Part shown: positions 45,604-62,236 of the stretch, piece by piece | Numbering within the stretch: the stretch's first letter is position 1 | Layout of the letters: each line of letters begins with the position of its first letter | Notes under the pieces: generated by a model | Database searches by the model: none | Told to the model about the DNA's origin: nothing | Seen by the model: only the letters and a program-made list of their open reading frames with translations | Program-made: the position numbers and the translations under genes | Assembly: GCF_019931145.1 (NCBI RefSeq) | Contig: NZ_JAIOUV010000008.1 | Location: 124,001-188,000 of the forward strand | Direction of reading: 5' to 3' | Length of the DNA: 64,000 nt | From: Marinicella meishanensis | Lineage (GTDB): Bacteria > Pseudomonadota > Gammaproteobacteria > Xanthomonadales > Marinicellaceae

Positions 45604-45632
45604 AATGGATCCCGGATCAAGTCCGGGATGAC
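45604..45632 (-). repeat. Dispersed palindromic repeat, short form
   Basis: AATGG then stem ATCCCGGA (45609-45616), loop TCAAG, stem TCCGGGAT (45622-45629), then GAC. Same orientation as the copy at 46064-46094. Family frame: GTCAT, stem, CTTGA-like loop, stem, GGATCC-type end (read on the minus strand here). Confidence 0.8.
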
Positions 45633-45665
45633 GGGACATGACTATTCTTGAAATCTTTAATATTC

Positions 45666-45744
45666 GTCATCCTCGGGCTTGGCTTACATGGATGTAAGTC
45701 CTAGAATCGAGACGGGATCGGAGATCTTGACCCGGGGATCCATT
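45666..45744 (+). repeat. Dispersed palindromic repeat, long form
   Basis: Begins GTCATCCTCGGGCTTG (45666-45681) and ends CCCGGGGATCCATT (45731-45744), with about 49 bp inserted at the hairpin loop. A second long-form copy with nearly the same insert is at 62159-62236. Confidence 0.8.
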
Positions 45745-45758
45745 TTAGTTCGAAGCTG

Positions 45759-46046
45759 TTAAACAAAATCCTCAAAGAGGTCTTGCCAACTGGGATTGAA
45801 ATTTTCGATCAATTCCAGCTTCCATACCCGCTGCCATTTTTTCAATTGCTTTTCCCGCTTGATGGCTTCATACATGTCGCCATGCAATTCATAATAAACC
45901 AATCGGTGGGTTTGGTATTTATTTGAAAAACCCTTCACCACATCCGTGCGCTGTTGGTAAACGAGTTGGATCAAGTCACTGGTGACGCCGATGTAAAGGG
46001 TTCCTCGTTCTTTGTTCGTTAAAATGTAAACTGCTGGTGTTTTCAT
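45759..46046 (-). CDS. Small GIY-YIG nuclease family protein
   Basis: 95 residues. The GIY-YIG core is VYILTNKERGTLYIGVTSDL, followed by a variant of the usual Arg region (LIQLVYQQRTDVVKGFSNKY, where the common Arg after the second motif position reads Gln), then THRLVYYELHGDMYEAIKRE and KQLKKWQRVWKLELIE. This stand-alone class is common in bacteria and its role is unknown. Relatives of the domain are homing or repair endonucleases. The gene lies 14 bp from a long-form palindromic repeat downstream and 17 bp from a short form upstream, in inverted order. The AAAGG before the ATG directly abuts it, so initiation is poor. Confidence 0.88.
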   Translation of the reverse strand: MKTPAVYILTNKERGTLYIGVTSDLIQLVYQQRTDVVKGFSNKYQTHRLVYYELHGDMYEAIKREKQLKKWQRVWKLELIENFNPSWQDLFEDFV

Positions 46047-46063
46047 CCTTTGGGCTAAATCAC

Positions 46064-46094
46064 AATGGATCCCCGGGGCAAGCCCGAGGATGAC
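46064..46094 (-). repeat. Dispersed palindromic repeat, short form
   Basis: AATGG, stem ATCCCCGGG, loop GCAAG, stem CCCGAGGAT (one mismatch), GAC. Inverted relative to the long form at 45666-45744. Confidence 0.8.
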
Positions 46095-46307
46095 GGTAGA
46101 TGGATGGTAAACAAATCATGAGATCAAGCTCAATGGACAGGCAGTCCATTTATTCTGATTCTGCTGACATGCAATTCTCTTCGTCATGGCTAACCACTTA
46201 TCGGTGTGAAACGATGACCTTTGGATCGGCGGCGGCCCGCCGGCAAAGGCACATCTGAATCAATTGGCCAACGAGCCGCCGGCGGTCTAAGCATTCATTG
46301 GAACCAC

Positions 46308-61980: not shown

Positions 61981-62158
61981 GTGCACGCTTGTTCCATCCT
62001 TAAAAGGCGTATATTACAAACCACACCAACATTCATCAATAGCCACCAGAGCTACAATGCAAAAAGAAAGACTCTGGGTACCGGCACCCGTTTTCACTGG
62101 GGGCAGGCTCTTCGCCGGTAAATCGTCAAGGATAATGTTGACTTTAACTTCCAAAACC

Positions 62159-62236
62159 ATCATCCTCGGGCTTGGCTTACATGGACCTAAGTCCTTGAAT
62201 CGAGACAGGATCGGAGATCGTGAACCGTGGATCCAC
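62159..62236 (+). repeat. Dispersed palindromic repeat, long form
   Basis: Second long-form copy: CATCCTCGGGCTTGGCTTAC at the left (62161-62180) and a GGATCCA-type right end near 62229-62235, with an insert almost identical to that at 45682-45730. It lies in the 368-bp gene-free stretch between purU and the lipoprotein gene. Confidence 0.8.

Follow-up and report, generated by a model that had tools for sequence, protein, structure and literature searches.

A stand-alone GIY-YIG nuclease gene of Marinicella meishanensis lies between inverted copies of a CGTC-tagged palindromic repeat (REP), and many of its relatives in other bacteria are placed in the same way. The association between this kind of nuclease and inverted REPs is as good as certain. 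We consider, with a probability of roughly 70%, that a widespread minimal element has decayed at this locus; in such an element the nuclease would be the dedicated partner of a cognate REP family, would cut the REP hairpin and would leave the copying to the host. The nuclease is likely to be dedicated to its repeats in this way, and it is the best candidate for an enzyme partner of the CGTC REPs. That it also moves its repeats is the best single explanation but unproven, and movement is what we infer. Throughout, the window means the whole 64-kb stretch of DNA that was analysed; the features concerned are collected in Table 1.

Table 1. The nuclease gene and the repeats of the 64-kb window.
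Feature	Position	Strand	Basis
GIY-YIG nuclease-like gene, stand-alone, 95 aa; Arg28 replaced by Leu, His32 by Gln	45759..46046	-	ORF list, Pfam, alignment, AlphaFold model
CGTC-tagged REP upstream of the gene, 30 bp, composed of an outermost CGTC tag, a 9-bp stem with a 5-nt loop, and a CCA tail	46066..46095	-	sequence and folding
Long-loop variant of the CGTC-tagged REP, 78 bp, downstream of the gene and in inverted orientation to the upstream REP; its tag is also outermost	45665..45742	+	sequence and folding
Extra REP just beyond the downstream REP; right end GACG	45606..45633	-	sequence
Solo long-loop REP of the same family, without an adjoining GIY-YIG gene	62158..62235	+	degenerate-motif search, sequence

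The open reading frame of the nuclease begins with an ATG start codon, and its product belongs to the GIY-YIG superfamily by its Pfam match (E 9e-11; 42.3 bits compared with a cut-off of 22.6). GIY-YIG is the sole Pfam domain of the protein, and a search of the NCBIfam profiles returned no family for it. The preliminary description had placed the gene between inverted repeats with exact outer arms of 16 bp; this arrangement is confirmed, and the arms are one base longer, with positions 45665-45681 and 46079-46095 being exact inverted complements over 17 bp. In the window, a degenerate version of this 17-mer has three matches at up to two mismatches (two exact and the one at 62158 with 1 mismatch); 0.13 would be expected, none of 100 shuffles of the 64-kb window reaches three, and chance is a poor account of these matches. 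The upstream REP has the tag, the 8-9 bp stem, the 4-5 nt loop and the CCA tail by which CGTC REPs are defined in the accessible text of PMC3733652. The downstream REP departs from this definition and consists of the two halves of a plain REP with 44 bp between them, within which lies a second small palindrome. Because a second, gene-free copy occurs in the window, the long-loop REP should be considered a repeat form in its own right. The same solitary copy means that the repeat exists without the gene, as the preliminary description had also stated, and in the 4.0-Mb genome the repeat core has 48 copies when up to 2 mismatches are allowed, compared with 1 for a reversed control. The extra REP has GACG on its right-hand side and was therefore assigned to the minus strand. 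Half-REPs that break off in the loop (CTTG), with other sequence following, recur at L229, at L232 and at window positions 45665-45681 and 62158-62174, as if breakpoints clustered at the hairpin loop.

Among 53 aligned proteins of the family, Tyr7, Tyr18, Gly20, Glu65, Asn84, several basic residues and a block of the form REK..K.W.R.WK and N..W are invariant. Arg28 and His32 are kept in 52 of the 53, and the window protein is the sole exception. The central Arg of an active GIY-YIG enzyme is a Leu in this protein, and the reading frame is otherwise intact. Because both Arg28 and His32 are missing, the window copy is probably dead or repurposed; with its otherwise intact frame, it has most likely been inactivated recently, or else it is a form that only binds. 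Its closest relative on the protein tree, L037 of genome G016, retains the Arg and has CTTGA-type repeats nearby, and despite this matching repeat type it is not bracketed by the strict inverted-repeat test described below. The AlphaFold model of the window protein has a mean pLDDT of 91, and the nearest solved folds, both weak matches, are UPF0213 (E 0.0025) and Slx1-Slx4 (E 0.03); a profile match to PDB 1zg2 gives 1.5e-4. According to the accessible text of PMC8287910 and PMC9071465, branched DNA is the substrate of Slx1-type nucleases, and by analogy an Slx1-like fold would be compatible with a hairpin substrate. In the accessible text of PMC1564403, which classes GIY-YIG proteins, the stand-alone prokaryotic members are grouped with Slx1, and the word stem "palindrom-" is absent.

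The Pfam GIY-YIG profile detects six genes in the genome of the window, and four of these sit among repeats. Flanking inverted repeats are absent from UvrC (L002, judged by eye) and from a 99-aa gene, L003, that overlaps its neighbour. A second, degenerate copy, a pseudogene at C9:201724-201924, lies between inverted REPs of the kind that brackets the window gene. The gene L004 at C12:172206 lies within an array of another palindrome, CCCGACCCCGATCGGGAAT, which the genome matches at 28 places when up to 3 mismatches are allowed; ten of these places fall within C12:171539-173050. The longest inverted match around L004 is 9 bp, so that it is not bracketed by the strict test, and its label as repeat type A, which was taken from one nearby repeat, is doubtful because its own array has the CCCGACCCCGATCGGGAAT form. 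A degenerate gene at C14:80029 (L001/L196) lies among TTCGAC/CTGAGC repeats, and the second GIY-YIG subfamily to which it belongs (the SYYTGHTDNLE type, with L197, L198, L200 and L202) seems to occur near such repeats. With a query that was partly guessed, this motif has 4-16 matches in the 350-bp flanks of the SYYTGHTDNLE-type loci compared with 0-2 in 23 other loci, which perhaps represents a second nuclease-repeat pairing. A search for GIY-YIG remnants in 12 other repeat regions of the genome gave none that were useful (best E 0.98).

The association is general. Bracketing was scored by comparing the 300 bp on one side of a gene with the 300 bp on the other and taking the longest exact inverted match, with a strict threshold of at least 14 bp. 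The relatives were the best 80 of 556 loci, a sample leaning to close relatives, which by record title come from Proteobacteria, Nitrospirae, Planctomycetota, Chloroflexi, a Leptolyngbya and others; 10 were dropped for flanks shorter than 300 bp. The 70 tested loci include 38 that are bracketed and 32 that fail the strict test, whereas among the 409 other ORFs of these loci 7 are bracketed (Fisher p 8e-30), a contrast inflated by near-copies among the loci (e.g. L101/L109/L139, L145/L149 and L021/L156). Five of the seven bracketed other ORFs start less than 500 bp from the nuclease gene. The palindromes beside these relatives mostly have the form (C)GTCAT-stem-loop-stem-ATCCA. A further sample from the window's genus, family and order comprised 88 loci among the matches listed, with only some of the UvrC genes and with L001, L006 and loci with flanks shorter than 100 bp left out, and was scored against a family profile built from hand-picked proteins. 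At 90 bits or more, 21 of 45 loci are bracketed (26 of 45 at a threshold of at least 12 bp), and between 40 and 90 bits 1 of 7; below 40 bits, a group with 12 UvrC and other small GIY-YIG proteins, 1 of 36 is bracketed, and this one, L076, is a 66-aa partial gene with CTGAGCGGAG repeats. UvrC and the less related small GIY-YIG genes were rejected as carriers of the repeats on this count.

Plasmid loci are bracketed in 8 of 11 cases, the 11 having been taken from 33 records and some representing one site in several strains. The class sample, which consisted of 28 of the 79 nuclease matches listed, with two dropped and four contributed by G141, gives 14 of 26. This sample was not blind: L238-L245 were picked first, when repeats beside some of them or high repeat numbers in their genomes had already been seen, and the other 20 were taken largely on their score, although repeat counts were known by then; if the eight loci chosen with repeats in view are left out, the figure is 9 of 18. 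The enrichment of the repeat near other GIY-YIG genes, on which the preliminary description had made its proposal depend, is thus found in the relatives and in the genus, family and order sample as well as in the class sample. Upstream tags point outward: across 73 of the best 80 of 556 loci (7 dropped), the nearest upstream tag is outward in 44 and inward in 14 (p=1e-4), the downstream tag shows no significant orientation (40:27, p=0.14), and both tags are outward in 29. Dispersed repeat pairs in five genomes, among the matches listed, are outward in 17, inward in 6 and on the same strand in 21 cases, and G137 has the reversed trend among the matches listed (2 outward vs 5 inward).

Several observations on individual loci belong here. 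The genes L029, L032 and L042, which form one clade, are bracketed (14-15 bp) by GTCATTGCGAGGAG-type repeats. On the Planktothrix agardhii plasmid p1 (L185), a nuclease of the family has a type IIL restriction enzyme gene on one side and drmA of a DISARM system on the other, with GTCATTCTGAG repeats around it. Nuclease proteins are identical (L021/L156) or very close (L122/L152) across records labelled as different groups, which reflects either recent transfer or mis-binned contigs. The plasmid records NZ_CP119140.1, NZ_AP026896.1 and CP090106.1 (2.2-4.9 Mb) look, on their size alone, like mislabelled chromosomes or large replicons.

Repeat type follows protein clade. Thirty loci of the window's family were labelled with five repeat classes, and the 413 non-syntenic protein pairs from different genomes have a mean identity of 63% where the repeat type is the same (99 pairs) and 52% where it differs (314 pairs; permutation p=0.0002). 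The nearest protein has the same repeat type in 23 of the 30 labelled loci. On a tree of 116 labelled proteins, repeat type requires 17 changes compared with a shuffled mean of 36.6, and 0 of 200 shuffles is as low, a result that near-copies inflate; types C and E taken alone do not cluster on this tree. Loci with flanks fitting none of the repeat-type patterns (51 of 167) were left out of both the tree and the pair tests. Six genomes have at least two labelled nucleases, and the labels differ within the genome in five of them (G014, G016, G019, G004 and G001); the sixth, G000, rests on a doubtful label. The specificity of enzyme for cognate repeat that is expected of REPtrons is seen here as co-variation at the sequence level only.

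Nuclease and repeat also co-occur across genomes. Among 232 genomes of the class, the nuclease (E 1e-12) is present in 57 and type-A repeats (exact GTCATNCCNGCGNANGCNGGNATC) in 76, with both in 41, the nuclease only in 16, the type-A repeat only in 35 and neither in 140 (odds ratio 10, p 2e-12, kinship ignored). In eight of the 232 genomes, at least 10 type-A repeats occur without any match to the nuclease at E 1e-12. The repeat-rich genomes G119, G128, G153 and G231, which have no match, share a genus code with the match-bearing G236, G241, G259 and G111, and the match in G259 is a fragment only. A strong nuclease match (E 1e-25) occurs without a type-A repeat in 11 genomes, type A being the sole repeat counted.

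A RAYT or other HUH transposase in the same cells might be thought to mobilise the CGTC REPs in trans, and genes matching Y1_Tnp are indeed frequent, with 43 matches in 12 of the 15 genomes that have at least 14 type-A repeats. We took 30 of the 43 matches, of which 29 were testable, and 12 of the 29 are bracketed by some inverted repeat; therefore, the method also detects the known kind of system. However, a type-A CGTC REP lies within 300 bp at 1 of 29 Y1_Tnp loci compared with 17 of 26 GIY-YIG loci (12 of 18 without the eight pre-seen loci), and no Y1_Tnp-type gene is flanked by CGTC units in the accessible text of PMC3733652. Furthermore, G109 (265 type-A repeats) and G250 (59) have a GIY-YIG gene and no Y1_Tnp match. 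One genome, G128, has at least 10 type-A repeats and a match to neither enzyme. RAYT/IS200-type genes are thus disfavoured as partners of the type-A repeats, and we regard mobilisation in trans as highly improbable.

The module is present or absent at conserved sites on related plasmids. Plasmid AZO_p3 of Azospirillum lipoferum has the gene, together with four CGTC REPs, in the interval from sufB to sufC. This gap measures 617 bp, and its counterparts in three relatives of 95.5-96.5% identity measure 91, 87 and 129 bp; 11 other Azospirillum records with both genes, four of them inspected, align over 78-80% of the query, which is consistent with absence of the module. On Sphingobium plasmids, fnrL and a regulator flank the module, with a gap of 457-464 bp in three strains, and the gap is 105-111 bp in strains TomTYG72, TomTYG64 and TomTYG74. 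The latter two have a single symmetric REP where the other strains have REP-gene-REP, and this REP reads as the outer halves of both ends fused; it may be a precursor site or the product of a collapse in which an element lost the stretch between short direct repeats. A symmetric REP with a CGTC tag on either end, resembling these single-REP sites, is also seen in the genome of the window (L228:411-442). At the inspected Azospirillum sites and in TomTYG72 the alignment contains no REP. In Shinella, two inspected strains have the module and two do not. The insertion boundaries examined show no clear target duplication, and the differences between strains at these sites may be gains or losses.

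The locus of the window gene yielded no clean empty site, because the neighbouring ORFs are also not found beside sufE in the congeners. The pair cysS-sufE was found in 14 congener loci, and neither the GIY-YIG gene nor its two neighbouring ORFs occur within about 1.5 kb beyond sufE in them (far less in L254 and L258). In the congener G006, a different family member with 50% identity to the window protein (L036, C1:198952) is found on the contig of sufE (C1:203255), about 4 kb past that gene, which may be chance or a shared hot spot. The empty sites called for by the preliminary description are therefore available from the Azospirillum, Sphingobium and Shinella plasmid sets but not from the locus of the window gene. 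Its suggestion of a GIY-YIG counterpart of the REP-associated transposases gains support from the enrichment and from presence and absence, although mobilisation is inferred and the copy that prompted the suggestion is probably dead.

CGTC REPs might simply gather in permissive intergenic DNA, where an acquired nuclease gene would sit by chance and without a functional tie, and it is true that the repeats often form arrays and that the neighbourhood of the window gene was not found beside sufE in congener loci. However, bracketing is rare for the other ORFs of the loci sampled (the best 80 of 556), and most of the ORFs that have it lie close to the nuclease gene; less related GIY-YIG genes, UvrC included, are nearly free of bracketing; and repeat type tracks protein clade over non-syntenic loci. 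We consider such a passenger gene improbable. A host-beneficial role, in which a structure-specific nuclease resolves REP cruciforms and the flanking REPs regulate its own gene, would suit the weak resemblance of the fold to Slx1, a nuclease of branched DNA, and the possibility, raised in the accessible text of PMC3733652, that REPs act as RNA elements. The patchy presence of the gene (57 of 232 genomes), its broken copies and its presence or absence between related plasmids look selfish instead, and we believe that maintenance is rather unlikely.

Alternatively, the nuclease might cut uninterrupted REP sites so that repair inserts its gene, as in homing; the repeats would then be targets spread by something else. 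The single symmetric REP at the site of REP-gene-REP in TomTYG64 and TomTYG74 and the similar REP in the genome of the window would suit such a process. However, the inspected Azospirillum sites and TomTYG72 have no REP in the alignment, deletion between short direct repeats inside two REPs could also leave a symmetric REP, and the co-variation of repeat and nuclease type is left unexplained. Homing is unlikely on this evidence, and we prefer the reading in which repeats and nuclease are dedicated partners.

Under this preferred reading, the minimal element would consist of one Slx1-like GIY-YIG gene of about 95 aa between inverted CGTC-tagged REPs with their tags outermost, and the nuclease would serve its cognate REP family as RAYT transposases serve the GTAG REPs, although the enzyme folds are unrelated. 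The palindrome would become single-stranded or be extruded, on the lagging strand or as a cruciform; the nuclease would recognise the hairpin and the unpaired CGTC tag and cut there; and host replication and repair would then copy material into the break or out of it, be it a REP, an inverted pair of REPs or the complete unit with its gene. GIY-YIG enzymes hydrolyse DNA and are not known to join it; therefore, joining would be supplied by the host. Whether the CGTC REPs as a whole, and perhaps also the GTCATTGCGAGGAG and TTCGAC/CTGAGC types, are bacterial mobile palindromes propagated by Slx1-like GIY-YIG nucleases is, in our judgement, an even bet. If so, REP-enzyme systems would have arisen at least twice, by convergence from two unrelated nuclease folds, the Slx1-like fold would have acquired a new use, and a unit of 350-500 bp whose single gene has 95 codons would rank with the smallest self-propagating elements of bacteria. 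The analysis also yields a concrete candidate enzyme with many repeat partners, together with ready presence/absence sites.

GTAG and CGTC REPs were defined in 2013 (PMC3733652). According to the accessible text of that study, CGTC REPs occur in five phyla and are not associated with transposase genes; what spreads them was left open, one hypothesis being that enzyme-bearing elements vanished early, and the term "GIY-YIG" has 0 occurrences in that text. We found no earlier report of a GIY-YIG/REP link in the literature covered, which leaves out preprints and most subscription papers. The GIY-YIG family, the CGTC REPs and the REP/RAYT systems were already known. The repeats described here resemble the CGTC REPs of Di Nocera 2013, including Neisseria dRS3 and Rickettsia RPE-4/6, in the tag, the 8-9 bp stem, the 4-5 nt loop, the CCA tail and the frequent dimers; those of the accessible text of PMC3733652 are without a dedicated transposase, whereas ours are tied to a nuclease gene. 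The protein shares its fold and domain size with the prokaryotic Slx1-like/UPF0213 GIY-YIG proteins (PDB 1zg2 and 1ywl) but differs in the REK..K.W.R.WK and N..W block, and the less related small GIY-YIG proteins lack the repeat association. With the free-standing GIY-YIG homing endonucleases it has in common a selfish-looking stand-alone gene; in contrast, it carries no further Pfam domain, and its unit has palindromic-repeat ends rather than one conserved target gene.

The closest parallel is the REP/RAYT system (REPtrons, REPINs). In both cases, a single small nuclease gene lies between inverted palindromic repeats, the repeat family is dispersed without the gene, several enzyme-repeat pairs occur per genome, and the tag lies outside the hairpin. 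The enzyme is GIY-YIG (Slx1-like) here and HUH/Y1 there, the tag is CGTC here and GTAG there, and no joining chemistry is expected of a GIY-YIG enzyme, unlike in REP/RAYT. Of the features that define a REPtron, the flanking of the gene by inverted REPs and the dispersal of repeats without the gene were found, whereas an HUH/Y1 transposase gene (Pfam detects GIY-YIG only) and a GTAG tag were looked for and are absent. Because these two features are absent, the GIY-YIG/REP unit is not a member of the REP/RAYT systems, but it is a unit that works like one.
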